A model generated the notes under the pieces. It worked only from the letters and a program-made list of their open reading frames with translations, did no database searches and had not been told where the DNA came from. Positions 16,131 through 63,924 of a stretch of DNA of 64,000 nucleotides are shown in pieces. The position numbers and the translations under genes were made by a program. Position 1 is the stretch's first letter. Each line of letters begins with the position of its first letter. Origin of the DNA: Mesodorylaimus sp. YZB2_4 (Eukaryota > Nematoda > Enoplea > Dorylaimida > Dorylaimidae); assembly GCA_030248295.1 (NCBI GenBank), contig JASANH010001563.1:124001-188000 (forward strand), read 5' to 3'.

Positions 16131-17529
16131 CTAGTCTTCATTGAACAAGCTGACGATGAAAGATGATTCTTGTGAGCGAGCACGGGCAAATCGATTCGGG
16201 CGTTTTGGGCAAGGGCAGTAGCGCCCATCTTTTCCGGCTTCGCCAGTGGAGCCTACAGTAAAGCATATTTATTCGATCTTCTACACTCGATGTGCGATAA
16301 AGCGCAAGCACTAACCTGGTTGTCCATATTCGCCCTGCCGACCAGATGGTCCTGGATTGCCTGGAGGACCAGGTAATCCGGGCAGTCCAGAAACACCGAT
16401 TTCGGGTGCAGGCACGCCTAAAATGGACATTCTTACCGTCTACTCTATGTTACTGATGTAATGACCAACCTGGGCTGCCTTTGGGTCCTGGTGGTCCCGT
16501 TTCTCCCGGTGAGCCTGTAAACTGCCGAATCTTGAACTGGGCATCGACAGAGACTACCTTACATACCCTTCGATCCCTTTACTGGTTTGCTGTTTCCCCT
16601 CGCATCCTGTCCAGGTGGACCGCGGGACCCGGGCTCACCTCTCGCGCCTGGAGCACCGCGCTCGCCAGGGAGACCCTAAAAGACGATCGCCATTTCCTGC
16701 AGAAGCAATAATGAAACATATGAAAATGATCATACCGGGGGTCCGATGCCAGTGTCTGCAATAGAAAATAATCTGCCAAAACTAGTTTTAGCCAGGAAAC
16801 TAGACCAGTTTTGCTTACTTCCAGGCATGCCCACGTTGCCGGGTGATCCATGAAAGGAAAATAGTAGGGTTATTGCACATGCAATCTTGAGGGATATCAT
16901 GGCTTACTGGCATTCCTGCTGGTCCCGCTGGACCCTGAGGCCCATCGGGGCCTGGCGCACCAGCTGGGCACGCCTTCTTGGCGCAACGGTCGATGCTGAA
17001 ACGAGAATTCGGACATTCAAGTTAGTTAGTCAAGTTAGTCAAGTAAGAATTTAGTGAAGCACTACCTCGGTTGCATATTTTCCAGTCCTGGAAACCCTCT
17101 TTTCCCTGGGTCGCCTGCAAGCAAACAGTGTCAAACAGTCAAACAAGTAACGAGCACTGGCAATCACTGACCTCGCTCGCCAGGCATGCCTGGTTCGCCA
17201 GCTTCCCCCGGCGGTCCTGGTGGCCCCTTGGGACATTGGCGTCTGTCGGGGGTGCACGAACACCCGTCCTCCTCGCCGGACACCTCGTATCCATTTTGTC
17301 TCAGAACTCTGGGTGAGACTGGCAAGTGCTTGTTGATGACAATCAGGTCCGCTGTCATTTGCCTGACCAGATCTCGAAATTCCAATGCCCCCGAGTCGAA
17401 GTCGTCCAATGCTTCTTCTAGCACCAGGCGGCAATAGGGGAGGTACACGCTGAGAATGAGGAGCACTAGGCCACTCAGAGAGATACTGATCGAAGCGACG
17501 AATTTTATCGAGGCACGATCTTCCTTCAT
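16131..17529 (-). CDS. Nematode cuticular collagen
   Basis: Cuticle collagens are secreted, trimerise through Gly-X-Y repeats and form the nematode exoskeleton. Nine exons join in frame for 307 residues: 17172-17529, 17066-17114, 16908-16995, 16819-16849, 16736-16755, 16567-16675, 16470-16514, 16316-16417 and 16131-16252. The N-terminus (M-K-E-D-R, then a hydrophobic segment at about 11-32) fits the nematode cuticle collagen N-terminal domain. Gly-X-Y blocks begin with G-P-P-G-P-P-G and are broken by short cysteine-containing gaps (D-R-C-A-K-K-A-C). The tail G-R-Y-C-P-C-P-K-R is a family hallmark. Many intron phases are 1, splitting glycine codons as expected for collagen exons. The boundary before exon 4 shows TTTCAT instead of TTTCAG at 16850 (see findings). 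The ATG at 17527-17529 is preferred to an upstream TTG in the same frame. Confidence 0.93.
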
Positions 17530-18009
17530 GGCTCCTATCTCAGACCGAGGCAAGTGAGTGACAGGAACTCTCGCTCACCCCCTTTTATGGCCTGGGTGTG
17601 TTGACCGGCTGGCCTCGCTGTCCTCCGGTGGCCCGCACTTGTCACTAAAGGCTGCCACTTTGTCCCCGACCCATCGCACGATGTTGTGTGATTAGGTGCG
17701 TTTAGGTGCAAGAATCGAGTTGACACGGTCTCCTCCGGGTAACACGCAAGAATCGTGCATTATTGGCCGACAAAAGCGACATTCATTCATTCAAAAAATT
17801 ACCATCTAACATCAAAAACGGACACACAAGGAAAATAGAAAAACTAGCAAATTCTATGGAGCCGCGTATGGCGCGTATGTACAGGGCACACCGGACTAGT
17901 AGACTACCTTCCAAATAAGGTGTATATATTGCCGCACGATATGAATACACGGACGAGTGGTGCAGCCTATTTATATCACAACGGGCCTACGCGAATCAAT
18001 AGGCTACTA
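17530..18009. other. Spacer between collagen and potassium channel genes
   Basis: This 480-base gap lies upstream of the collagen start and downstream of the channel stop, both on the minus strand. I see no exon. It should contain the collagen promoter and the channel 3' UTR, but no motif stands out. Confidence 0.4.
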
Positions 18010-48085: not shown

Positions 48086-51000
48086 ATGGCGTTAGACATT
48101 GGTGAACGGAATCGTTTTGTTGTCGATGCTAATTCAGCTGTTTGTTTCAAACTTAGTAAGATTCCTCCTTTTTCCTGATGCAGATCGGTACCAGCCAAGT
48201 ATAGGAAGCAGTGTGACTGTAGAATCCACATATGCTTTTTTTTTAGTTCGTCGAGAAATCGATATAATCGGAACCAACAATGCGTTTCACCCGGACTTTT
48301 CCCATCAATTTTTTGGACAAAAGTACGTTTGGAATTCCAAACGGACAGCAGGGAGAAAGTAGCGTTTCCGGAAACGCTACATTCTTCCTAGTGTCCGTAT
48401 TAATAGTCCTCTTGTACTGTGCCTAAAACCCACATTTAGGCCTGTAGTACAGCAATAAATCCTTACTCTCCATTTAAAAATTTTTTTACCGGGCCATGCT
48501 AGGGATAGGTCGGGATCCCGATCCCATCTGGATTTGACCGCTTCCGATCTGATTCCGACATTGAGGCATCGGGATTCTGCGGTCGGCGTCTATAATTATA
48601 TACAGTAGGCATAAGCACGCTAGGCACACTCTGATCCATCATATTTGCGATGATGCAGTAACAGCAGTAGCGATGAAGAGGCAGATGTCTCTTCTTTTTG
48701 CGGCATCTCAAACTCATTCAGCTCTCGTTTCGTCTCCTTCTCGATTCTCACCAAAGAACCTGGTCTCTCTGCGTATTTCTGCGTATGTGATCCCGAAGAT
48801 CACTGACAACACTGTTCGTCCCATGGCATCCTCTGGTCCCGAATCTGAACGATTTCTGCAGTCGTACGATCTCGCCGACACGATCCCATCCGCTCCCGAA
48901 TATCGCAATGTTGACGTTCTGCTCGGTGCAGAATACTGGGATCAAATCTTCGCTGACTCCAGCGTTCCAGTACTTGTTAGTCCTTCGTTATCTCTTATTT
49001 CCTCTCGTCTCGGGTGGATCCTTCCCGGAAAAGTAGAATCACCAACCCTTTCCTACAAACGAATCTGCGAACATCATCTCGCATACGACGCTTCTCCTCT
49101 CGAACACTCACTCTAATCGGTTCGCCTAGTCTGAACTCTTCCGATTCGCATGGTCGATCTTTCAGCAATTTAGAATCCTTAACAGAATCGGAATCCGCGA
49201 TCGTTCATCTGATATTGACAATAACTCTGTACTACGCAGTCCAAGAACGATCTACACTCTACGATTTCGCTTCACTTCGTCCCTGGAAATTCGAGTCCAG
49301 CCGACATAGCATCTCGAAATGACACCATCCCTAATCTCAACTCGTGTTAAAAAGAACCTGATTTCCTCCCCAAGTCGCGCAGCGAATGGCCCACTTCTGA
49401 AATATCATCTCCCTCGCCTGATATCGTAACTCCAACTTTCACGCTTCCGCAACGCCGCTCTCGCTACAAGCTCAAATCGGTGATCCCGATAGCCACACTG
49501 ATTTTGCTTAAACCTAGGCTGACCTTGCTGGACGTATATCGAAAGTGCAAATTAACTGAACCATTTCAGCTTATACAGCAAATAATGCTTGAAAATCGGT
49601 CTAAGAAAAAGCTTTGTAAAAACCTGGAACCTGGTACTAAAGTGGGCTTTAGTGAGGAAAATACTTTCATAGGCAAAAAACAGAAAAATGCATAAAATCC
49701 TGATCCCGACCTATCCCTAGGCCATGCATAGGCACTAGGTTAAAAGTGCTCAAATCCGGAACGCCTAAGACTCAAGTCCGTCTCTGTCTAAAAATTAACA
49801 AGACTGCGATGAATTTTTAATTTTGGTTGAACCGCAGCTCCTTACTTGGCAAAGGTATTTTTTTAGAACTGCTCACTCGTTCTGCTTTAGGCTCACTTCG
49901 ATCCTAATGCGGAACACCCAAAAGGCCTGGGGTTTTGACTACCTAAGGAATAAATTTTAGTGTAGCTTTTGTTTAAAAGTCAAGATTAAAGCAACACTGT
50001 TTCTGTCTTGTTCCTTGGCCAAAAACAAAGTTAAACATTGCTTTTTTCAACAAATTTAAAGCCCGCATGTCCACCTTTACTTTTTCTGTGCAAAAATGAG
50101 AATCACATTAGCAGGACCAACCTTTCGTATATGGTAATATTTTTGCCATAAACACGCATTCTCGCCTGCTCAAATTGGAGAAGTATCCGATCGTGAGCGT
50201 AGGAAAAGCAGTTCTTTCTTTCAGCGAGACCATCTACGGTTACACCGATCTTCGCGTAAAACTCTACTACGCGGCCTGCACGTTGGACATCTATTTGGCA
50301 CTGTCCTACGATCAGAAAGTAAATCCAAAAACCGCTGATGCTGTTCAGGTACACTGATCCCACTTTTCAAAAAGCTTCTCCGATTACTGACTTCTTGTTT
50401 AAGGCCGACGATATCGTTTCAATTGTGGGCAAAACGTTGCCTTCCAGTTTTTGCACCAATTCGGACTCATTCTTGGCACTGTTACCGAAACAGCACGAAT
50501 TTCGCCCGTTCGGTCAGATGTTGCACGCGTACGATTTTGAGCACGGTTAGAACTGTTCCCATTTTTTACTTGATTCCAATTTTACTTACAGTTAGTCCAT
50601 GTTGTGTTTAGGGAGCGAGAAAAAACGATTTGAAATCTACAAAGTGAACGAATCGACGCCCGCTTTTGTCTCGTATTTTGAAAAAATGCAAACGTTTGCT
50701 TTGTGGTTCATTGATGCGGCTTCTTACATCGACATGGACGACCCGTTGTGGAATTATTACGTCATGTACGTGCAGCGGTTATTAGCCGTGGGTAAATGCT
50801 TTGTGCATGTATGTCTTGTTCAGGTACGAAAAGTTCAAGGATGACGATGGGCAGACGTGCTACGCGTTTTGTGGGTATTCTTGCGTCTATCACTACTACG
50901 CGTATCCCGAGCATATTCGACCGAGGATTGGGTGAGTCTTGACTGGTCGTCGTGTGGATAAGGTCGAGGTGCAGTGCTGAGATATGGGCATACATGCTGT

Positions 51001-52828
51001 GTCATCTTTCCACCTTGATGAGCCGTTAGGGGTTTCGATTTTTATCGTTAGGGAAGCTAAAACATGCACGCGAACCCGTGGTAACTTTAGCCGACCAACT
51101 CCAGGGTCTACTCCTAACTACGCCCACACATGGTGGCTTGTGTACAGGATATGATCAAAGATCTTTATCTGAGGAATGAGTTTCAGAAATATGTAGGTCC
51201 AGCGAAGCACATGGGAATATGATGTGCACAGTCGTGACCTCTGGCCGCCCCGCGTTCCTGTTTGAAATGTTGCAGTTTCGCGAAACCACCTTTTTATTTT
51301 AGTCATATTCTGATCTTGCCGCCGTTTCAAAAACGGGGTAACGGAGTTCAGTTGCTCCAAGCAATCTACAACGATTTGGTCCCAAATCCTAAGATCATCG
51401 ACATCACTGGCGAGTACTTTTTTCCCAGCTCGCTTATTTTATGAACTTGATTTTGTTTTCAGCTGAGGATCCATCTGATAATTTCATCCTTTTGCGGGAC
51501 TTTGTGGATAGTGTCAATTGTTCTCGTTTGGCTAACTACCAACCGGCCGAATTGAAAAAGGGTTTTTCCAAGGCCATGATCGATGAAGCTCGAGCGAAAC
51601 TGAAAATGACCAAAGTGTGTCAGAAGATAAGGTTAGCTTAATGCGGTCTTTTAATTAAGATGGTTTCAGAAGCAGGCAAGGCGTGTCTATGAGATACTTC
51701 GTTTCAAACATTTGAACGCCGGCGATGCAAACGAGTTTAAACAATTTCGTTTGGAGATCAAACGACGTCTTTACGCTCCTTTCCAGGTGAGTTCTCGATG
51801 TGAGCATAATCACTCGGGGGAATGGCGCCTTGGCGGTGTGGTGGCGAGGGCGTCTGCCACAACCTGCTTGGCAGAGCCCAGACCCAGCATCGACCGAACC
51901 GATCCGACTGCTTGATCGGCCGGATCAGCAACTAAAATTTTTCACGCTTTATCAGCTGGAAAATGATAATTTATGGCATACTAAAGTGAGAAAATCCCGT
52001 CTTTTCCTCCCAAATCACCATGTAATCCCACTTCAGGCGCTGGTGTCTCCCCTGTCTCCTTTGGAGTGGTCTGGTAGCGAGGAAACAGTGCCAGAGATGT
52101 CATCCCATCAATCTTCTACTTTTTGAAGCGGATCGGCCAGATCGGATCGGGATCGGGCCGATCCTGACCCTGGATCGGATCGGGATTAGGATCCGGGCCC
52201 AGGGTCGGATTGGTCGATGAATGGCCCTGACTGGATTTCAGTCGTCACTGGAGGCGTGCTCTTTGGCAGTGGGCGACTCACCCTTCGTCCGCCTCGGAGG
52301 AAGGGCCTGTGTGTGACTCGAGCCAGTCCTGTCACAAGGAATGGCTGGGTACGGTCGCCCTACTGATATTGTGGAGTGGGGACTAGTGCGCGCTCTTGCC
52401 TGTTCTTCCTGGACGGATCCTTGGTTGATGGCCGGATAAGTCCCCTTCCTTGAACCCGCGTGGAAAAAAGTCAAAAAGCGGAATGGTCAGTCATGCCCGT
52501 CTCTTCGTGTGTTGATAATCCTTGACCTATAGGAGTCTTGCTCAGATGTGCTGCTCTAGCACATAAAATGCTGCACTGGCCAGTACTGTATTTTTAGAAA
52601 GACAAGAGAGACTGGAGCAAGATCAGGAAAGCTTTGAATGAGCAAGAACTGGCGGCCACTGCGGCAGTGCAGATGTCGGTCGAACAGCGGATGCAAACGT
52701 TGCAGAAACAATTCGAGGAGACATTGGACGTGTATCGAATCACGTTGAACAAGTTGGCTATGAAATACGACACGCCTTCCTTGAACATACGTAACGAGAA
52801 TGGCCAGCATGCAGAGAATGGCAAATGA
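48086..52828 (+). CDS. HAT1: HAT1, type B histone acetyltransferase catalytic subunit
   Basis: HAT1 acetylates newly made histone H4 at Lys5 and Lys12 before chromatin assembly, together with an RbAp46/48 partner. Ten exons join in frame for 426 residues (family about 420): 48086-48155, 48247-48322, 50225-50348, 50404-50545, 50612-50765, 50824-50931, 51303-51409, 51463-51614, 51670-51786 and 52598-52828. Landmarks are H-P-D-F-S-H-Q-F-F-G, F-C-T-N-S-D-S-F-L, the acetyl-CoA loop I-L-P-P-F-Q-K-R-G-N-G-V-Q-L-L and the catalytic I-T-A-E-D-P-S (matching human Glu276-Asp277). The C-terminus is K-Q-A-R-R-V-Y-E-I-L-R, then a coiled-coil-like tail. The position of human Glu187 is Asp here (W-F-I-D-A-A-S-Y). 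Intron 7 starts with GC (ACTG|GCGAGT). Intron 2 (1.9 kb) holds a hAT-like transposon, and intron 9 (0.8 kb) holds GATC-rich repeats. Confidence 0.96.
48500..49719. mobile_element. hAT-like DNA transposon in HAT1 intron 2
   Basis: An 18-bp perfect terminal inverted repeat, TAGGGATAGGTCGGGATC, starts at 48500, with its complement ending at 49719. The element is flanked by an exact 8-bp direct repeat GGCCATGC (48492-48499 and 49720-49727). An 8-bp target duplication and TIRs beginning TAGGG are hallmarks of the hAT superfamily. No hAT transposase is present, so the 1220-bp copy is non-autonomous. The intact ends and duplication indicate a fairly recent insertion in the sense intron of HAT1. Confidence 0.85.
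48673..49330 (+). pseudogene. Decayed BEL/Pao retrotransposon fragment inside the hAT-like element
   Basis: A frame at 48673-49116 encodes a stretch with Y-D-L-A-D, then V-D-V-L-L-G-A-E-Y-W-D-Q-I and L-G-W-I-L-P-G. This is the order and spacing of the aspartic-protease-like domain (DUF1758/Peptidase A17) of BEL/Pao polyproteins (consensus D-L-A-D, D-x-L-I-G-x-D-Y-Y, L-G-W-I-L-S-G). Similarity appears to continue in another frame after about 49140, so frameshifts have accumulated. No reverse transcriptase or long terminal repeats are seen. It is described only as a broken remnant. Confidence 0.7.
51787..52597 (+). repeat. GATCGG-rich repeat patches in HAT1 intron 9
   Basis: This intron is longer than its neighbours. 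At 51890-51930 and especially 52129-52216 it carries irregular GGATCGGATCGGG repeats in both orientations, which can fold back on each other. The word set resembles the ends of the hAT-like element in intron 2 (GGTCGGGATC), so a related, more decayed insertion is possible, but I see no clean terminal repeats or target duplication. Confidence 0.5.
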
Positions 52829-53454
52829 CGTTAATCTAAATTAACTGCATTTAAAATTTTTGTATGCATCACTCGGACATTTTCAAGATCTTGTGGACTC
52901 TTTATCTTCTGCGTTAATCTGGTTTTGACGAGCCTCTAAACAAGCATGTGTATTTGAATATCTGTCCTACTGTATCTTCAATGCTCAGGCTCGACTGCTT
53001 ATGACAATAGAAAAGCAGCCTTTGTCGATTTGTGTGCGCGCACTTGCACGTGTACACCCGGCTGCCAGAAATTTTGTCATTCAGTGATAAATTTCCACTT
53101 CCTAGGGTGATCGATGTTATCGGGAGGAGAAATGTGATTTGGGTATCGAAGGGGTTTCCTCATCGAGCACTTCCAATAGTTAGGTGAGTCCGTTTCAGTG
53201 GTCGAATGTGTAGCTGCGAAGTAATGATACCCGTAGCCCTCTTGTAATTTGCCACCATGAGTGCACATTGATCTGTTTCGGTAGGAGTGTAATATACTGG
53301 TAGTATATGCCCTGTTGGAAACTTGGAGAGGGCGTACACATGATCGGATGACGATTTAGAGCAGGTCTATGCGTGATCCTCTAGTTGCCTTCTGGCCCAA
53401 ATCTTCAACTGACTTGTTCTTTAGAACCCTCGCCGACTGATCCTAGGTTTTGGC
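52829..53454. other. Gap between HAT1 and ATG1
   Basis: 626 bases without a recognisable exon. A TTCTTTAG acceptor-like site lies at about 53417-53424, 30 bases before the ATG1 start codon, and could serve a 5' UTR intron or trans-splicing. No AATAAA is seen directly after the HAT1 stop. Confidence 0.4.
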
Positions 53455-56400
53455 ATGGAATCGGTTGGCGAGTTCGAGTACAACAAGAAGGACCTGATTG
53501 GCCATGGCGCCTTCGCAGTTGTTTTCAAAGGTCGATATCGAGAGGTAAGTATGTGTGGTCAATCGAAAGTGACTCCCATCGGGTGTTTGCGGGTGGGCCA
53601 GTGTTTTTAGCCAGGGTGTAGGGGCTGTAGTTGCTGTGAGGTCAGCCTAATTTACTTGGTTACAGGAACCGATCCCCGTAATTCAGTGAAGCTCCCCTGC
53701 CAGACTGTCTGTTACTCTAATGTTCGCTCTTGGACTGGACCGTGCTTCTTTTCTGGGCCCTTAGTTTACACACACACACACACACGTAACAAGTAGTTCT
53801 TGTTTTAGCGCCATGATATGCCAGTTGCGATTAAGAGTATTACCAAGAAGAATTTATCAAAGTCGAAGAACTTGTTGGGCAAAGAAATCAAAATCTTAAA
53901 GGTGAGGGGCAGCCGTAGCTTTAAATCCGATTGATCCGTTGCCGCGCTCGAATTATTCGATTCCATTCGGAGACAGCGGGGCTTTCGTTCTAACGGCGCG
54001 TGGTCGGTGGTAAAGGAAGGGATGGGGTTATGCCGTCCTCCTGCCTCGGCGCGTCGAGCGGCCTCAGCCGGATCGATAGCGTGTTGCATGCGCGGGGGCG
54101 CTTTTGTCGTTGTGTTGGGAGAATATCGATTTCGGAGCCGGTTTAACTTCAATTTCTTGCGCACCCGGAAGGCTGCCCCGATGGCCATTTCCTATTTATT
54201 GTGCACTCAGCCTGCTTTTTGTGTTGAAGATGGGGACCGTCGTTGGCTTGCTTCTGTGCTGACTCTCTCTGCACCTTGTCGAAGAACACTACTGGTGGAT
54301 TTGTTGAAAAAGACATTTTTAGGAACTAAGCGATTTGCATCACGAAAACTTGGTGGCGTTATTGAAATGCATCGTAAGTGTTGAGTTTTCAGTTTTATGA
54401 AGTGCCGTGTAGTGAGTCATTGCATTGCTCTGTAGGAGACGCCGACGCATGTATTCCTCGTGATGGAGGTGAGCTCGCTTTTCTTACCTTCGTCTTATTC
54501 TTTCAATGTGACGTAGCTCTTTCTATTTTAGTATTGCAATGGCGGTGATTTGGCCGATTATCTGCAGGCTAAGGGCACCTTGAGCGAGGACACGATTCGT
54601 TTATTCTTGCGGCAAGTGGCGGCCGCAGTGCGGGCAATGAATTCCAAGGGGATTGTACATCGGGATATGAAACCTCAGAACATCCTGCTCTGCAACATCA
54701 CCAGCAGACCCAATCCCTTACCGCACGAGATTCGACTGAAAATCGGTAAGCTGCCTCCTTACAGGATATGGTTGAATGATCTGATGATGCTCATCCTTCG
54801 CATTACAGCCGATTTTGGCTTCGCTCGGTTTCTGGAAGGCGGTGTAATGGCGGCTACTTTGTGCGGGTCGCCTATGTATATGGTAAGCTGGTTGGCTTCC
54901 ATCTTTCTGGCCTCTTCTCAACTGCCTTATTTACAGGCGCCAGAAGTAATCATGTCGTTGCAGTATTGTGCCAAAGCCGATCTGTGGTCGATTGGCACCA
55001 TTGTATTCCAGTGTCTGACTGGCAAGGCACCGTTTCAAGTAAGATTTCCATTTTTTGGTATGAGTTGCTCTTGCTATCAATTCCTGTTTTATTATCTAGG
55101 CCCAAACTCCGCAGGCGCTGAAGCAGTTTTACGAGAGGAACAAGGAATTGAAGCCCAAGTAAGCTTTTGTTGCCTTGGTGTTTTGCTATGACAGTCCAGC
55201 CTGACCTCATCAGTGTCACACGGCAATGGCCTTCTGTGCGTTGTTGATTGTAAAATATCTTGGTTATTCTAGTATTCCCGAGTCGACTTCCTCCGAGCTG
55301 CGGAGCTTATTGCTAGCCCTTTTGAAACGGAATGCCAAAGATCGAATAGAATTCGGTAAGTGCTTTCGATCAGCCGCTGTAGCCTCGTTGGTACGAGTTA
55401 GCTGCAATGTTCTGTTGTTTTGTAGATGAGTTTTTCGACCACCCGTTCCTGAAAGAGAAGTCGAAACCCGTTTTGTCGCCGTCGGTGCCAGTCAGTGATC
55501 GTCAGCCGATGGCAGCCAGTCCAGTCTCGGCGCTGCCTCGTTTGGTAGGAGCCACTCCAGTCACCTCCTCTCCACCTTCGGCCGCTGCCGCGATGCAAGA
55601 CAAGCCGTATCCGAGCGCTGACGCTGCTCCTGCGATCTACTCGCGGGTCACTTCCGAAGGTGCAGCAATCCAAGCTGCAGTGCCCAATTACGGTTCTCCT
55701 GTTAAAGTTGCTGCGACGAATGCGAATGTGATGTCACCCAGAACGGTTGTCGCGTCGAATGTCAAACCCCCAGCACCACCCATGGAATGCGAAAGCGATT
55801 TCATCATCGTATCTGCAGCGATGAACGCGCAGCCACCCGTTCAAGATATGACGAGGTAAGTTGTGGATGCGCCTCCAATCGGATCGTATTGACGATGTAT
55901 TGTTTCAGAGCCCCCGTGGTCGTTCCACGTTCCCCAGCACGTCTGCAGAGCGGCGCGTTTAGTGGCCAGTCACCAGTCAGACCCGCCAGTCTGCCGAATG
56001 CATTGGAGCGCGGAGCGACAGGCAATGTTCTACCTCGTCCAATGGTCGACGCGGCCGTGGTCGGTCCTCGCATTTCTCAACCAGTCCCCGTTCCTTCGCA
56101 GAAAGAGAATTATAAGCAGATGGAAGAACAACGACAAAGGCGAGAACGGTCGAGTTTGGAGAGCTGCGAACAATCTGCAAAATTGCAGGTGAGATGGCTT
56201 TTGTTGTCTGAAATACCTTGTCGTTGAGAATGCCTGTACATTGTAGAAAAGTTCCTCGGAGATCATTCAGCATCATATCAACGAGGCACGCTCGTCGGTT
56301 GCGCTTGAGCAGCAGCAGGTCAAGACGGCGGGCCCCGACAAAACCACCGTGTCAGAATTTGAACAACAGACGCTCGCCGCAAAACAGACGCAACCGACTC

Positions 56401-58062
56401 CCGGCGGCGGATTCCGTCTGCCGTCTGTGGCTGAAATCGCAGTTCCTGAAAGTAAGACCTGAGATAACGTGATCTCTGAACTGATTATCATAACGCTCCA
56501 GTTTCAGAACGCTTTGATATCGGTCCAGTCGTGGGAGTGATGCAAACTCCTCGTAGAAGAACCGTTTCCACGACACCGTTGGACGAGAGGGCAAATGCAA
56601 ATGTGATTCCGTTCACTGGAAGAGGTAAGGACTACGCCCCTTTCCCCCAATGCTTGATGGATTCGATTCGGGCTCATTTCAGCTCGAACGGCCAGCGAGC
56701 GGTTGGGCAGCTTGCCGCTGATCGCATCGGATGAAGATTCGCCGGACGAAGATTTCCGAAAACCTTTAAACTTACCATTCGCAGGAGTGACGCCCTCGGC
56801 AAATCTAGAACGAAGTAGTCGGTCCATGATGGACGAGTCCGAGCACAGTCAATTGATGGAGAGTTTGCGAGAAGAGGTTTGCACGGGCGCTCCTGTTGGT
56901 CATTTTGCTGCTGCCACTGGTAGAGAAGGTAAGCTCGGGGAAGGTGCAGCCTTGCTTTGAAGTGATCACTCTATGACCCGTCATTTTCAGTTGCGAGTGG
57001 GTCGGAATCTTCCCGTAATCCTTCCGACTCCAACGAACACCAGCAGGGCAATGTGGCACGCGATCTCCACGACTCTCCCGACATTCAAATTTCATCAGCG
57101 AGAAAATTCAAACGCCCTCCCGACTTGAAACCAGAAACGCTTTGTGACGTATGGCCTTTTCTAATGCAGCGAGTGGGATAGAGAAATGTTTTGTGCTTTC
57201 AGAAGGATCACAATGATACGCTGGCCAAGTTGCAGTTCGTACTACAGTTGGTGGACAGTCTGATTCAGCTGGCGCAGAGTCGGTCGAGTCCGTTATCGGT
57301 CATGTTGCAGTCAAGGAAGGTAAGCTGGCGCGCTCGCTCGATTCGTTCTTGAGTTATTTCGGCATATTTGCCTTGCAGACACCGGGCGTGGACTTTGGAG
57401 TACAACTGAGCGAGGCCTATCGACGAGTCGAGCAGTTGGTGGTCTACGTTCGGGCGCTGCACATGCTGTCGTCGGCGTTGCAACTGGCGCAACAGGAACT
57501 TACGGCCAAGCGGCTCCATTTGACTCCCTCAGTCAAGCAGGGTAGGTGCGGGTTTGAAATGGGCTTTGTCAGTGGCTGACTGTGTCATCGTTTCAGTGCT
57601 GAACGAGCTCAACGAGCGATATCACGTCTGCTTGATACGTTCGCAGGAACTGGCCAGCATTGGTCTGCCGGGCTCGGACCCGGCCCTATCGCTGATATCG
57701 GCCGAGAGGTTGATGTACAATCACGCGTTGGAGTTGTGTCAGTCGGCCGCCTTGGACGAGTTGTTTGGCAATCCGCATTTGGTAAGCACCTTGTGCTTCT
57801 CGATCGGGGATCGTGAGACCGGCATGACTTCTCGTTTCAGTGCTGCCAACGGTACCAGACGGCCTATATCATGCTTCATTGTTTGTCGCAGCAGGTCACG
57901 TGCGAGGAGGATAAAGTGCTGCTGCAGAAATGTAGGTTCTTGTTGGTGTTTGTCGTGGGCCATCATGTAGGACACTTGTCAATTTCAGACAAAACTGCTG
58001 TCGAGAAGCGACTGCACATTCTCGGGCGACAAGGCTACGTGTCTGTGAATCATAATTTGTAA
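53455..58062 (+). CDS. ATG1/unc-51: ATG1/ULK (UNC-51) autophagy-initiating Ser/Thr kinase
   Basis: This kinase starts autophagosome formation and, in animals, supports axon growth. Twenty exons join in frame for 954 residues, with boundaries 53455-53544, 53809-53901, 54323-54373, 54436-54468, 54532-54745, 54809-54882, 54937-55038, 55100-55158, 55273-55355, 55426-55855, 55909-56188, 56247-56451, 56508-56624, 56683-56928, 56991-57148, 57203-57319, 57379-57541, 57597-57781, 57841-57931 and 57989-58062. The kinase domain (about 6-275) has the Gly loop [15 protein letters not shown] (Lys39), H-R-D at 132-134, D-F-G at 162-164, [12 protein letters not shown] and D-L-W-S-I-G. All catalytic residues are present. 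The Ser/Pro linker contains D-F-I-I-V at about 391-395, where ULK1 has its LC3-interacting motif. The C-terminal helical domain (about 745-954), which binds ATG13, is complete. ATG 53455 aligns with the family start. Confidence 0.97.
53769..53786 (+). repeat. (AC)n microsatellite in ATG1 intron 1
   Basis: About nine AC units lie just upstream of the exon 2 acceptor at 53808. Confidence 0.9.
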
Positions 58063-58428
58063 CCATGTGTGCTGTGAGTTTGCCTATTTGCAATGGCGAT
58101 CTTCGCGAGACACTGCTTTCGAATGCGAAACTCGGGCGCCGCTTGCGATTATTTTTCCAAATTACGGTCGTGGGATTTGTCGTAGTGCATGGCTTACCGG
58201 TTTCACTAGTCCTACTTGATCGATCGGGCCGCGTGGGGCTGTTTGTATCTTCGCGCTTTCACGCATCCTATCGAAATGGGTCGTACTTTTTGTGTAAATT
58301 GGACACATAGTCAGTGAGTAAATCGTGCAATCTCGATCCGCCCTCTTTTGCTGACTCGGACTGAAGGTCGACTTTGCTTGCTGCCTTCTCACTCGACTCT
58401 TCCCCTTGGTGACGTGTGTCCGTTTAGC
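58063..58428 (+). promoter_or_regulatory. ATG1-CCZ1 intergenic, possible trans-splice acceptor
   Basis: This 366-base gap has no AATAAA or other clear cleavage signal. It ends in GTCCGTTTAG one base before the CCZ1 ATG at 58429, which has the form of a splice acceptor. With no coding exon upstream to pair with it, it could accept a spliced leader or a 5' UTR exon. The role is inferred. Confidence 0.4.
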
Positions 58429-59796
58429 ATGGTCTACGTTGCGGCCTCGGAGGTGCTGCGTCAGTTCTACGTGTTCAATCCGGATTATGGGAGCAAGGAC
58501 GGCGAGGAGCACAAGAAATTGCTCTTCTATTATCCCAAGATAGACTCCCTGGACACGCAGATACAGAACGTGGGATTCTGCGAGGCGGTGGTCAAATTCT
58601 CGGACAACTTCACGGGCGGCCAGGCCCCCTTCCACGAGGTGAATACCGACAACGAGCTGCATATATATTCCAGCTTCGAGGACAAGTTCCTGATCGGCGC
58701 CACATTCAGCAAAGCGGCCGCTCTTGAGCGCAAGTATTTTCTGCACGGCAAAGCGCTTAGCAACGTCCTGGTCAGGGCCTATGACACGTTCCGACTATTC
58801 TTCGGTACCTTCAACGACGTGCTGACGAGGGCAGGCGCGGACGGAGTGAGTTGTTTGAAGGAACGGTTGGACTATTTCTTTACTCGATATTTGATGTCGT
58901 TGAAACTGGCCCCGATCCCTCTCATGGACGCCTTGGAGTGGATCTCGTACTTGAAGGTGGACCCGACTAATTACCTCAAGGCGCAGACGTTCGCGGACAG
59001 GACGGTGGCGGAGTTCCCGGTCATTCGACATTTCCTGTTCCTCTACAACGACCGTCTCCTCCTGCACAACCTGTTCACGGCCAACCTGCCTTGCCTCTAC
59101 CGCTACTTGGTCCAAAACCTGTTGCCGATTTCCCTTCGATCCGAACTGCAGCCCGAATATGGCGCGGCGAGGTCGTCGACGGAGCCGAGCGCGCACGGCA
59201 AGTTCATCACTGGCCCCGGCACCGATCACGACTGGTCCAAATCCAAGGCCGGGGTCAAGCTGCCGTCCGTCTTCCTGTTGCGGGAGGATGGTCAGGGTCT
59301 GGACGAGTATTACCTGATCGTGTACCGTGCCCACAATGCCATTCTGGCCATGTTGGTGCCCGTGGGAGAATCGTCGTCGTTGGACGCCGATTTCTTCCGA
59401 ACACTGGACGCTTCGATCGGTAATCAACTGGCCAGTCTGGCCTCGACCCTAGTGGACGTTTACGGCAAGGAGAGGGACGAGCCCGGGACGCACCAGTACA
59501 TCTACTACAACGAGGTTAGTCTGGCCCTGACCACCAGTATCAACGAGCAATCGCAGGGCATCCCGTCCGAACTCGCGGCCGCCCTGTGTGACTTCAGGGA
59601 CAGGATGGCCGAGTCGGACTACTTCGGCGACATCGTGGCCAAGGGAGATGGTGACTACTGGATCGCGGCCAAGAAAGCAGGCCAGAGGGAGCTCTACGTG
59701 GTCGCCTTCCAGAAAAACGCCAATTTGACTGACGTGCACGAAGAAATTAAACGATTCTGTAATTCCGTTTTTGAGAATGTCTTTCTGTTGGAGTAA
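58429..59796 (+). CDS. CCZ1: CCZ1, vacuolar fusion protein (Mon1-Ccz1 Rab7 GEF subunit)
   Basis: CCZ1 pairs with MON1 to activate Rab7 on late endosomes and autophagosomes so they can fuse with lysosomes. One uninterrupted exon encodes 455 residues, close to the animal length. The first longin region has F-Y-V-F-N-P-D-Y-G-S-K-D-G-E-E-H-K-K-L-L-F-Y, and N-V-G-F-C-E-A-V-V-K-F follows. Later landmarks are L-K-E-R-L-D-Y-F-F-T-R-Y-L, F-L-Y-N-D-R-L, H-G-K-F-I-T-G-P and the end R-E-L-Y-V-V-A-F-Q-K-N-A-N-L. The ATG at 58429 is used; the open frame extends 81 bases upstream without an ATG. It is intronless and more GC-rich than its many-exon neighbours, which is odd for this locus. Confidence 0.93.
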   Translation: MVYVAASEVLRQFYVFNPDYGSKDGEEHKKLLFYYPKIDSLDTQIQNVGFCEAVVKFSDNFTGGQAPFHEVNTDNELHIYSSFEDKFLIGATFSKAAALERKYFLHGKALSNVLVRAYDTFRLFFGTFNDVLTRAGADGVSCLKERLDYFFTRYLMSLKLAPIPLMDALEWISYLKVDPTNYLKAQTFADRTVAEFPVIRHFLFLYNDRLLLHNLFTANLPCLYRYLVQNLLPISLRSELQPEYGAARSSTEPSAHGKFITGPGTDHDWSKSKAGVKLPSVFLLREDGQGLDEYYLIVYRAHNAILAMLVPVGESSSLDADFFRTLDASIGNQLASLASTLVDVYGKERDEPGTHQYIYYNEVSLALTTSINEQSQGIPSELAAALCDFRDRMAESDYFGDIVAKGDGDYWIAAKKAGQRELYVVAFQKNANLTDVHEEIKRFCNSVFENVFLLE

Positions 59797-59908
59797 AGTG
59801 TTTGAGATTGGCTCGATCTCCTTTCTGCTGTGACGCGTTTCAGAACGCCAGTCGTATTTGATAGTGCTGTTTGAGTGTCCTGTGGATGGGTGTGGTTCCG
59901 TTTCAGCG
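59797..59908 (+). promoter_or_regulatory. CCZ1-VPS37 intercistronic region with TTTCAG acceptor
   Basis: Only 112 bases separate the CCZ1 stop from the VPS37 ATG. Two TTTCAG words occur, at 59838-59843 and 59901-59906; the second is two bases before the ATG. No AATAAA is present. Spacing near 100 nt with an acceptor right before the downstream start is the classic nematode operon arrangement. Confidence 0.55.
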
Positions 59909-60673
59909 ATGATGGCTACTTACGAGTCGTTACTCGACTCCGCCGTCGGCAGTGCCATGGCCCAGGTTCAGCGAATGTCGGCTGACGAGTTGAAGACGCT
60001 GTTGAACAACGACGATCAACTGAACGATCTGGTCAAGGACACGCCCCAGGTGAGCCCTGTGTGCCCCCTCCCGTGCTCGTCAACCATTCCTCGTCCTTTG
60101 CAGGCTAAGCATATCGCCACTGAAAAGGAGATGCTGCTGGCTCAGAACAAGAGCCTAGCCGAGTGGAACTTGTCGCAAGAGCCCAAATTGAGAGAAGCTA
60201 AAACACGGCTACTCGACGTGTATGAACAGGCGGCGAAACTGAAGGAGGAGGCAGAGGCTAAGAGGGCTCAATTGAGTACGTACGTGGACTCCCTGGTCAG
60301 TACGTCGTGTCTCCAGTATCTTTTTGCAGACGCCCTGGTCAATCAACGTTCGTTGGACACCACGCTGGCCTTGTTGCAGACGGCTGCCGCGCAAGCCGAG
60401 GAGGAGAGCGAGGTGAGCAGATCAATCGTATGTCCTCAAATATCGATACTTGAGTCTGCGTTTTAGAAAACAGCAGAGAGTTTTGTGAGTGGGGACATGC
60501 CAGTGGACAGTTTCCTGACCGAATTCAAAGCTAAACGTCAGCTGGCTCATTTACGAAAGCTGAAAGCCGAAAAGTTTTACGAGTTAATGAGAAACGCCGC
60601 TCGTCAAAGCGCCACTGCGGCTGCGCCGCCGGCCAGTGCTGTCCCGCAACCGCCTTGGAATTACCGACGATGA
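59909..60673 (+). CDS. VPS37: VPS37, ESCRT-I subunit
   Basis: VPS37 is a subunit of ESCRT-I, which sorts ubiquitinated cargo into multivesicular bodies and helps close phagophores. Four exons join in frame for 200 residues: 59909-60049, 60104-60275, 60330-60412 and 60467-60673. The core Mod(r) domain shows the family's L-N-D-D-Q-L-N-D-L-V-K-D-type motif (here L-L-N-N-D-D-Q-L-N-D-L-V), then L-A-Q-N-K-S-L-A-E-W-N and a long helical coiled coil (K-L-R-E-A-K-T-R-L-L). The C-terminal block D-S-F-L-T-E-F-K-A-K-R-Q-L-A-H-L-R-K-L-K-A-E-K is the conserved F-x-x-x-F-x-x-x-R motif region. It ends with a short Pro-rich tail. Two ATG codons are adjacent (59909 and 59912) and either could be used. Confidence 0.92.
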
Positions 60674-60999
60674 GGATACCCAATTGATAATTCCCTTTAC
60701 TGCTCTTTTGTTTGTCAGAAACAAGACACGTGTTTTGTGTAAAAAGGAAAACGCATAAAAGAAATGTCATTTGAGATTGGTCTAGCTCTTTCCTCGTTTT
60801 GTGCCGAGTGGTGGGTTGAGGAGTTGGAGAGAGGCGACTGGAGAAACGCCTTGCTGCAATGGTGTGGCCAATCCTAAAAAGACGCCCTTATTATTCGCAC
60901 GTAGTTTACTAGAAAAATATTGACTACATGAGCACGGACGCGAACTCGAGTGAAATCATTGATGAGCATGCAATGGAATGGCAGTGACTCGTGACACAT
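60674..60999. other. Convergent 3' region of VPS37 and Nup58
   Basis: 326 bases between the two stop codons. No exon is seen. Both 3' UTRs must lie here. A near-match poly(A) signal (CATAAA) lies at about 60755 on the plus strand. Confidence 0.4.
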
Positions 61000-63924
61000 C
61001 TACTGACCTAGTGGCTTTACTGCTCCCACGTTCGTCGCCGTCCCACCGAACAGTGTGCCTGCAACGAAACTAACCTTAGCCCATCGACCCGCCAGCACTA
61101 GCACACGCGTACCTGACGAGCTCGTGTTGAAGGGACTGCTGAAGCGCCAGGTCGATGTAGTGGTCGTCGTGGCCAACGAGGTGGTTGTCGTCGCCGCTGT
61201 TGTGCCTGAAATTGGCGTTTTAGAAGAAAATGACACGACCAATGAAGACCCTGTTTTAGGGGCACCCAGCACCACGCTCTCCTTACCCAACGGTGTACTG
61301 AAGCTGAGGGCACCACTTGCGAACGGAGTCACAGTGGCCGTGGTCGTCGAGGCGGTTGTGGCCGCGCCGAACGGTCGGAAAAGGGGCTGCGACAAAGAGA
61401 ATGGTTGCGCCTGCTGCTGCTGCAGGCCAAACCCGAGGAGTGGCTGAGACGCGAATGTCGGCTGCTGCGGTTGTACTGGCAGGCCAATGTTTGGTACGAG
61501 GCCTAAGAAACACATGCTCAACACTTCCACAGATGCAAACCTGAAATAGAAGCATACCTGTTCCAGCCTGCGCTCTCGACAGCGCATTGGCGATCACCAA
61601 GAGGGCGCTGTTGGACGAAGATGAGAATGGACTCGGGCCCTCGATGCGTTCAAATCGCGAATTCGATGTATTGCTCATCGAAGGGCCGTCAGTAAAGTAT
61701 TTAGCTTGATCTCCGTACACAGCACGACGATATTCCTTGAACGACTGCTTCACTTCCTGCGAGTGAAAAGAGTTAGTTGTAGAACACCTAGGCTCCTCAT
61801 CTCACTGCATCCTAGAAACCTTCCTGATCACACGACTCACCTGAACTTTCTTATCCAACTCGTATACTTGAGCCGTCACAAAACGAAATGCGGAATCGAC
61901 CCGCTTCAAATGAGCTGCAATATCTAAAATCCAAACAGCAGCAATTACTATCCGACTGACTCCTTCACTCAAGCACGTTTTACCATCCAAGGAAATGGCC
62001 TTTTGCTGACCAAAAATTAGTTTTTCCAAGCTTCGAAGCTCCCCATCGTACGCAGCGAGCAAATTCTCGTAATTAGAAGCTAGTCGATACAAATAGCTGA
62101 AAAAGATTGCAACGATGAATCAGAGGCCCAAAAACGAAGACAATCCAGAGGGATACTTACTTCAAGGGAGCACCGTATTCGAAGTTGATGGTCATATTGT
62201 CCCGAAGACGGAGAGCCAGTTCGCCGTCGAGCAAATCCTAAGACAATAAAGGTGGACGGCTGCTGTTGCAAGAGTGCACTACTTCTTACTTGTCTCGATT
62301 CGGCTTGCAGTAATTTTGCAGACTGCAGCGTTTTCTGCACGTTGTTGATCGCCTTGCTATAATCGGCGCAGGCCGATCGATAACTGTTGTCCACCACGTC
62401 CAGCATCTTAGTATCGACGGATGATATGGCTTGAGACAGATCACGATTCTCCTTTATCCGATCCCTGAAAGTGATCAATTTACCTGAACTATCCAAAGCA
62501 GATAAGCTTCTACGATCAGAGCCAGACATATGGCATGATATACAAAAAGAATTGGCGACTTACTCAAGTACTTTTACGATGGCCATGATTTCTGGTGGCA
62601 CATCCGTCTCCTTCGGTGTCTTGACGCTGCAAAACTCACGCCAGTTAGATAACCATCACTTCATAGATGGAGCATATGACATGCCTACCTTTGGCCAGAT
62701 CCCGCTACTTGAGTTCCCGACAAATTTACGTCGCCGCGTGCTCCTCCTAAACCAGTAACTGGAGCTGCTTGGGTCGACTGTGCCTGTAATTGAGGCTGTA
62801 GTTGTTGGGGCTGTTGCTGCTGCTGCGGTTGACCAAAGCCTCCGAAGGTGGGCATTGTTGAAGCCACTGACGGTGTTGCGGCAGCGAAGGGAGACGCAAA
62901 ACTAGCCAGTGGATTCTGCAATTGCGTTGTCGAAGTGGCTGCGGGTTGGGCTCCTAAAGCAGCAAGGAGTTTGCAAATCATCAAGGCATTCAGAACGACA
63001 AATAGTGACACTTTCTTGTTCCTTTGCAACCCCTAGTACAGAGCAAACGGACAGATGCATCAGCCAATATTCAGAAAACGGATCAAAGCTCGACCAGATA
63101 TCCTTTTGTTACTTCAGGGTTGGACTTATCCAGTTATATTTAAATGTAGCATATGCCATGGGTGGATTTGTACTTACATAAGGTCAATGCACCTTTCTCT
63201 AGTTCGAACAAGAAAAATTCATGGTTTCAGCTGTAATTTAGGTTATTGTTTAGCCAGTGGTCCAGGATCAACTAATCCTGATCACGTCTGTGCCGCTGAT
63301 TTGAGATCGTAGTTTAGTCCCCACATAGAACGAGGCTGCAATACACTCGAATACACTACAGTAGTCCTAAAGGCGCATTTATAGTCGACAAAATTTCTAC
63401 TCCTACCCCTAGGGTAGGTGTAATGGCCATATACTTAAGCGTATGCTATTACACCGGCCCTAGGGGTAGGAGTAGAAATATTGTCGACTATAAATGCGCC
63501 TTGAGCGAGTATTCTGACCCAAACGTGCAGGTTGCCTGCAAGAAACTTTCGAGTAACCCTCAAGTTGTGTCTAATAAATTAGATTTTTGCGCTGGTACTC
63601 AAGGCTCGCTTTGTTCGGAGAATTGATAGAAAAATCCAGTTCTCCACCATGTTGTCTGAAAGTGAAGACCACAAGCTAACGTGAAACATGAAAGGTTTTA
63701 AAAAACCTATTATGTTTCACGTTTCATGTTTCGCGGTTTTAGGCATATTCTACTATCCGGTGAATCCGGCCGGATAATTGGCTAGGACTAATTATTCGGA
63801 CGTATTCGATGAAAGGGCCTCTCGTGGACGAGATCTCGAGGAGCTTACCGAAATTCCAACTGGTCGATAGTCCGCTTGGAGTTGTACTGGCGGCTGGAAA
63901 TGGCGATGTTCCAAATAAACTCAT
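61000..63924 (-). CDS. NUP58: Nucleoporin Nup58/45 (NUPL1)
   Basis: Nup58 is an FG nucleoporin of the central channel that forms the Nup62-Nup54-Nup58 coiled-coil complex. Ten exons join in frame for 499 residues: 63849-63924, 62689-62953, 62564-62626, 62290-62464, 62161-62237, 61984-62096, 61841-61923, 61558-61756, 61113-61502 and 61000-61058. The N-terminus has S-L-F-G-T and scattered FG motifs (F-G-G-F-G-Q) in a Gln/Pro/Thr-rich context. The central coiled coil includes I-S-S-V-D-T-K-M-L-D, the family block N-F-E-Y-G-A-P-L-x-Y-L-Y-R-L and V-K-Q-S-F-K-E-Y-R-R-A-V-Y-G-D. The C-terminal FG region has G-F-G, P-F-G and L-F-G-G. Intron 1 (895 nt) is much longer than the others and contains a large foldback. 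Nup54 is the alternative, but the Y-R-x-x-x-x-G-D block favours Nup58. Confidence 0.88.
63370..63502. repeat. Long foldback (near-perfect hairpin) in Nup58 intron 1
   Basis: The arm from 63370 (AAGGCGCATTTATAGTCGAC) runs about 47 bases with one mismatch against the complement of 63456-63502. Imperfect pairing then continues (GTGTAATGGC/GTGTAATAGC) to a tiny loop near 63436. At 133 bases with arms of about 60, this is a MITE-like foldback or a potential precursor hairpin. No clear target duplication is seen. Confidence 0.9.
63681..63720. repeat. Short hairpin GTGAAACAT...ATGTTTCAC
   Basis: GTGAAACAT and AGGTTTT pair with AAAACCT and ATGTTTCAC across 40 bases. The outer word is repeated in direct orientation just downstream (GTTTCATGTTTCGCGG at 63721-63736). 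It lies in the same Nup58 intron as the larger foldback. Confidence 0.7.

Follow-up and report, generated by a model that had tools for sequence, protein, structure and literature searches.

The operons of nematodes that are resolved with spliced leader 2 (SL2), as described from Caenorhabditis elegans, Trichinella spiralis and Trichuris muris, bring together tandem genes on one strand with short gaps between them. Nematode operons often mix unrelated housekeeping genes. In C. elegans operons about 100 bp separate the poly(A) signal from the next acceptor, and 89-838 bp lie between the poly(A) site and the spliced-leader (SL) site in other nematodes (PMC1657053); the median distance between cistrons has been put at 105 bp for one C. 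elegans run and at 517 bp for T. muris (PMC7986045). Here we describe a cluster of the genes ATG1, CCZ1 and VPS37 from the dorylaimid nematode Mesodorylaimus sp. YZB2_4 (assembly GCA_030248295.1), located in a stretch of 64,000 nucleotides (nt) of contig JASANH010001563.1 (positions 124,001 to 188,000, forward strand), referred to below as the window. The cluster shares with SL2-resolved operons its tandem genes on the same strand, its short gaps, the distance of about 110 nt from a poly(A)-like signal to a candidate acceptor next to the following ATG, and the presence of SL2-like SL RNA genes in the genome; it differs in having a possible fourth member, HAT1.

Because the genome encodes SL-RNA-like genes and both gaps have the geometry of an operon, it is likely that the three genes form an operon of nematode type, which would probably be ordinary in kind and unusual in its membership. 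Operons and SL2-like leaders are both already known from nematodes, and what is likely to be new is this gene set as an operon. Searches of the open literature, at the level of result listings, found no report of ATG1-CCZ1-VPS37 as an operon, which is weak evidence of absence.

The ATG1, CCZ1 and VPS37 genes

53455..58062, plus strand: ATG1/ULK-like kinase gene, 20 exons, 956 amino acids (splice model, Pfam and PDB ULK1)
58429..59796, plus strand: CCZ1, single exon, 455 amino acids, sole match in the assembly
59909..60673, plus strand: VPS37 (ESCRT-I, Mod_r domain), 3 exons, 218 amino acids

The original prediction, made from the letters of the window, named three complete genes lying head-to-tail on one strand. 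Their spliced models keep the reading frame open from start to stop in all three cases, and the names are borne out by comparison with Pfam and PDB. The ATG1 product combines an N-terminal kinase (Pkinase, 1.2e-65) with C-terminal MIT domains, the layout expected for ATG1/ULK; ATG1-like_MIT2 is matched above its cut-off (7.2e-11) and ATG1-like_MIT1 slightly below (21.9 bits for a cut-off of 22.5), and compared with PDB chains the kinase domain matches ULK1 at 2.8e-125. CCZ1 contains three longin domains (Intu_longin_1, Intu_longin_2 and Intu_longin_3), and its closest relative among solved chains is CCZ1 homolog B (2.6e-67). VPS37 is identified by Pfam Mod_r (2.6e-37) and by PDB VPS37B (6.3e-15).

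Intergenic gaps and candidate acceptors

58063..58428, plus strand: ATG1-CCZ1 gap, 366 nt
58317..58322, plus strand: AGTAAA, putative poly(A) signal for ATG1, beginning 111 nt before the end of the acceptor
58419..58427, plus strand: TCCGTTTAG, putative trans-splice acceptor for CCZ1, separated from the ATG by 1 nt, score 2.85 (weak)
59792..59797, plus strand: AGTAAA, putative poly(A) signal for CCZ1, sharing bases with its stop codon and beginning 115 nt before the end of the acceptor
59797..59908, plus strand: CCZ1-VPS37 gap, 112 nt
59897..59906, plus strand: TCCGTTTCAG, putative trans-splice acceptor for VPS37, separated from the ATG by 2 nt, score 11.46

The predicted distances from stop codon to ATG (366 and 112 nt) proved correct, as did the positions of GTTTAG one base before the CCZ1 ATG and of GTTTCAG two bases before that of VPS37. 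AATAAA is indeed missing from both gaps, but the argument drawn from its absence is weak, because the variant signal AGTAAA sits in each of them. The lengths of the gaps are comparable with the operonic distances given above for C. elegans, T. muris and other nematodes, and the distance from AGTAAA to the acceptor in both gaps fits the nematode operon spacing of about 100 nt. On both strands of the window, the layout AGTAAA, 90-120 nt, TTT[CT]?AG, at most 2 nt and ATG is found twice, exactly in these gaps, and in 40 Markov shuffles its mean is 0.025 and its maximum 1, figures whose force is reduced by the fact that the test was framed only after the hexamers had been seen. For comparison, one of 13 kinds of listed hexamers lies 108-116 nt upstream of an arbitrary position of the window at a rate of 3.65%, the range having been fixed after the spacings were seen. 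Aligned locally, the two gaps did not stand out from shuffled sequences, 229 of 300 of which reached the same score.

The acceptors were scored with a matrix built from the 21 introns of the cluster, which themselves score between 4.3 and 11.0. The VPS37 site lies above all 21 intron acceptors. Sites of the form TTT[CT]?AG at most 2 nt from an ATG were counted 17 times per 2003 ATGs on both strands of the window; four of these counts are doubles, which leaves 13 places, two of them being the CCZ1 and VPS37 sites, and a single site of this kind is therefore not rare. This frequency, together with a poly(A)-signal-like hexamer after each gene, would accord with three independent neighbours, each with its own promoter, in which the AG before the ATG is the ordinary acceptor of an intron in the 5' untranslated region (UTR) or a matter of chance. 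We consider such independence quite improbable: a 5' UTR intron, a promoter and a 3' UTR would hardly fit into 112 nt, and SL-RNA-like genes are encoded in the genome.

The sizes of the gaps also bear on a split arrangement, in which CCZ1 and VPS37 would be co-transcribed from a promoter in the 366-nt gap and ATG1 would be a separate unit. While 112 nt leave little room for a 3' UTR, a promoter and a 5' UTR, 366 nt suffice, and the VPS37 acceptor is strong where that of CCZ1 is weak; on the other hand, the spacing from AGTAAA to the acceptor is nearly equal in the two gaps, and we hold the split to be unlikely.

The 11-mer TTTGAGATTGG occurs at 59801-59811 and 60770-60780, directly after the poly(A)-like signals of CCZ1 and VPS37. 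These are its two copies in the window, none being present in the other loci examined, and the stretches around them align locally better than 300 of 300 shuffles.

Candidate spliced-leader RNA genes in the genome

SL-RNA-like genes with shared anatomy (15 genes, L090-L103 and L105): contigs C1, C3, C7, C9, C20, C24 and C26
The same set, further contigs: C58, C71, C74, C116, C156 and C176

Trans-splicing had been assumed in the original prediction, and this premise is now supported by 15 SL-RNA-like genes, with 12 different leaders, in the same assembly (145,146,385 bases in 1067 contigs). They were found among the 18 matches to a third search pattern, which demanded GGTT, ACCC and a GTACGT donor and merely bounded the length of the leader. 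A backwards control gave 17 matches; the evidence for SL RNA genes is therefore the anatomy shared by 15 of the 18 loci and not the number of matches. The three others (L104, L106 and L107) lack this anatomy and were rejected as SL RNA genes.

The leader is 22 nt long in 13 of the 15 genes and 23 nt in two, and is directly followed by GTACGT, as the pattern demanded. Its 3' end is TGACTG in nine genes and GTTGAG in five, L105 being divergent. An Sm-like site, recognized with a relaxed expression, lies 42-48 nt past the donor in all 15, some sites being variants (AGTTTTTG, ACTTTTTG, AATTTTTA or AATTTATTG); the SLIDR criterion, used for comparison, places the Sm-binding site 20-60 nt after the donor. 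Upstream, a shared block read by eye has GTTTC 43 nt before the leader in 14 genes and 44 nt before it in L105, and a stricter expression catches 12 of the 15. Folded singly, the sequences form stem-loops of the small nuclear RNA (snRNA) type. The RNAalifold consensus has 12 pairs, six of which, all within one stem-loop, are changed on both sides in at least one sequence with pairing kept. In the stem between leader and intron, 5.27 of 6 positions are paired within the genes' own sequences and 4.4 after partners are swapped (210 swaps); L105 fits this stem poorly, with 2 of 6 pairs.

These genes resemble C. elegans SL2 and the SL2-like RNAs of Trichuris and Prionchulus in their leaders of about 22 nt, in the order of donor and Sm-like site and in their stem-loop snRNA shape, whereas the 3' half of the leader is different here (TGACTG or GTTGAG, then GTACGT). 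Six of the 15 genes, with three of the leaders among them, open with the 12 bases GGTTTTAACCCA, as C. elegans SL2 does.

Other approaches to the leaders were less productive. Comparison of the 18 loci with Rfam gave no match with an E value of 1 or better. A first pattern, with 42 matches and 39 in its backwards control, was rejected, and a family that it yielded (L037, L046 and L053) was set aside as a repeat, since its homology extends into the flanks. A second pattern, GGTT...ACC...AATTTTTG, gave 177 matches and 131 in the control, with three look-alikes among the approximately 100 matches listed. Canonical SL1 with GTA directly after it is absent from the 145-Mb assembly, even when 3 mismatches are allowed; no match to the Rfam SL1 model appeared among the 50 candidates scored out of 31302 genome-wide, and as control genomes gave none either, this result is uninformative. 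At three loci with 5S ribosomal RNA repeats, read by eye, no linked SL RNA was recognized.

HAT1 upstream of ATG1

50216..52828, plus strand: HAT1-like gene, possible first gene of the run, with approximate start and exon junctions placed by eye
53086..53091, plus strand: GATAAA, a variant poly(A) signal between HAT1 and ATG1, beginning 113 nt before the end of the acceptor (53198)
53189..53198, plus strand: TCCGTTTCAG between HAT1 and ATG1, 256 nt upstream of the ATG1 start
53415..53424, plus strand: TGTTCTTTAG, second candidate acceptor of ATG1, 30 nt before the ATG1 start, score 7.48

A histone acetyltransferase gene, HAT1, overlooked in the original prediction, ends on the same strand (stop codon 52826-52828) 626 nt upstream of ATG1. 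Its joined exon pieces match Pfam HAT1_C (2.5e-19) and Hat1_N (9e-15), and solved HAT1 chains at 1.1e-59. An open reading frame (ORF) upstream of HAT1 (48565-49116, plus strand) resembles, by eye, a retrotransposon polyprotein of BEL/Pao type, with no Pfam match.

The position of HAT1 raises the question of a general operon of four genes, HAT1-ATG1-CCZ1-VPS37, in which the theme of autophagy would be a coincidence. The HAT1-ATG1 gap resembles the others in having TCCGTTTCAG with GATAAA upstream of it, and the string TCCGTTT[CT]?AG occurs three times, once in each gap of the four-gene run (53189-53198, 58419-58427 and 59897-59906), in the window and about 276 kb of other loci searched on both strands (L001 excluded, some loci overlapping), a confinement noticed after the fact. 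The acceptor in the first gap does not adjoin the ATG1 start, however, GATAAA is a weaker poly(A) signal, there is room for a promoter in the gap, and repeat-like sequence is seen by eye in the last intron of HAT1. The length of the gap is close to the operonic median of T. muris, 517 bp (PMC7986045). Taken together, a four-gene operon with a coincidental theme is a tentative possibility, somewhat on the unlikely side; it overlaps the three-gene operon, so that the likelihoods of the two do not add up to one.

A probable operon and its proposed mechanism

If ATG1, CCZ1 and VPS37 do form an operon, polymerase would start upstream of ATG1, or further up before HAT1, and read through all the genes. 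The transcript would be cleaved and polyadenylated at the AGTAAA signals, and the mRNAs of CCZ1 and VPS37 would each acquire, at the AG directly before the ATG, a leader some 22 nt long donated by one of the SL2-like SL RNAs of the genome. The gene identities, their order, the gaps, the acceptor-like and poly(A)-like signals and the SL-RNA-like genes are observed; from them we infer co-transcription, the choice of leader and whatever regulation autophagy and endolysosomal traffic may share. Joint transcription is more secure for CCZ1 and VPS37, since 112 nt provide very little room for separate units, than for ATG1 and CCZ1, with their larger gap and poor acceptor. The trans-spliced polycistron originally proposed draws support from the SL-RNA-like genes and from the spacings of 111 and 115 nt, while the weak CCZ1 acceptor detracts from it.

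A number of observations speak against an operon of these three genes. The CCZ1 acceptor GTCCGTTTAG scores lower than all 21 intron acceptors of the cluster, and the 366-nt gap before it is large enough for a promoter. When any of ten hexamers at 80-125 nt is allowed, the layout has 4 matches in the window, 3 of them in these two gaps, and shuffles give a mean of 0.98 and a maximum of 4. The RNAalifold consensus of the SL-RNA-like genes is without the leader-intron stem and the third stem. TCCGTTTCAG is no clear genome-wide mark: TCCGTTT(C)AG lies within 10 nt of an ATG 107 times and 74 times in the backwards control. Of the 107 sites, 12 were read (ATG at 2 nt in 11 and at 1 nt in one), L113 and L118 among them representing the same repeat. 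In not one of the 12 does a hexamer of the poly(A) list fall at 108-116 nt; AATAAA lies at 98 nt and AATACA at 117 in L110, and AAGAAA at 96 in L120. In view of these controls the string was rejected as a general mark of trans-splicing and is taken as a local feature. Two positive controls gave nothing as well. A family search for the nuaf-3/cpt-2 pair found no match. An operon conserved in other nematodes (PMC7986045) was not recognized upstream of aph-1 in a 6-kb stretch that was inspected by eye and not with a family search.

The original prediction went further and proposed that the polycistron couples successive steps of the same route. This was inference from the outset, and it is weakened by the poor CCZ1 acceptor and by HAT1, whose place upstream with similar gap features makes a reading as an autophagy route weaker. 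That autophagy is regulated by way of a common transcript is a hypothesis, which membership of HAT1 would dilute.

An intronless CCZ1

CCZ1 has no introns, compared with 19 in ATG1 and two in VPS37, and its GC content at third codon positions is 0.776, compared with 0.588 and 0.644 for these neighbours. A genome search gave no second match beyond CCZ1 itself, so the gene was rejected as one of several copies; no direct repeats flanking it were listed. These properties, an intronless and single-copy gene with GC-rich third positions, suggest the idea of a retrocopy that replaced its parent, which would explain them; loss of introns would do so likewise, and either is possible.

A joint reading combines this idea with the four-gene run. 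HAT1, ATG1, CCZ1 and VPS37 would form one polycistron with a single gap layout, in which the first base of a poly(A)-signal variant precedes the end of TCCGTTT(C)AG by 111-115 nt, and CCZ1 would have entered the operon as a retrocopy, come to be expressed through trans-splicing with no promoter belonging to it, and displaced its intron-bearing parent. As a whole, this combination is distinctly unlikely.

Other features of the window and the assembly

61000-62600, minus strand: exons rich in phenylalanine-glycine (FG), nucleoporin-like (NUP58/p54-like by eye, no Pfam match), convergent with VPS37
17164-17571, minus strand: cuticle-collagen-like ORF by eye, with a weak Pfam Collagen match (E 0.002, below cut-off)
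C73:249945-256168: mitochondrial cox1 in both orientations (L002, L004 and L008), with rRNA-like (ribosomal RNA) sequence by eye, in a contig of 488 kb

The window further contains a weak match to the Pfam CC domain (E 0.025), which together with the collagen-like ORF and the SL2-like leaders suggests, though it does not prove, that the DNA is of nematode origin. The cox1 frame on C73 includes TGA, and these loci are either a nuclear insertion or a misassembly.

Significance

The repertoire of SL RNAs, with its two classes and 12 leaders, would allow RNA-seq of this species to be scanned for operons. An intronless CCZ1 within an operon would, if confirmed, be a testable case of retrogene capture, and should the joint reading of four genes and a retrocopy be true, an activator of Rab7 would have come under the transcription of the kinase that starts autophagy. 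If the operon itself is confirmed, a kinase, a subunit of the Rab7 guanine nucleotide exchange factor and a subunit of ESCRT-I would be made from one transcript, and the cluster would be a natural case in which to test whether genes of one pathway are ever brought together in nematode operons.

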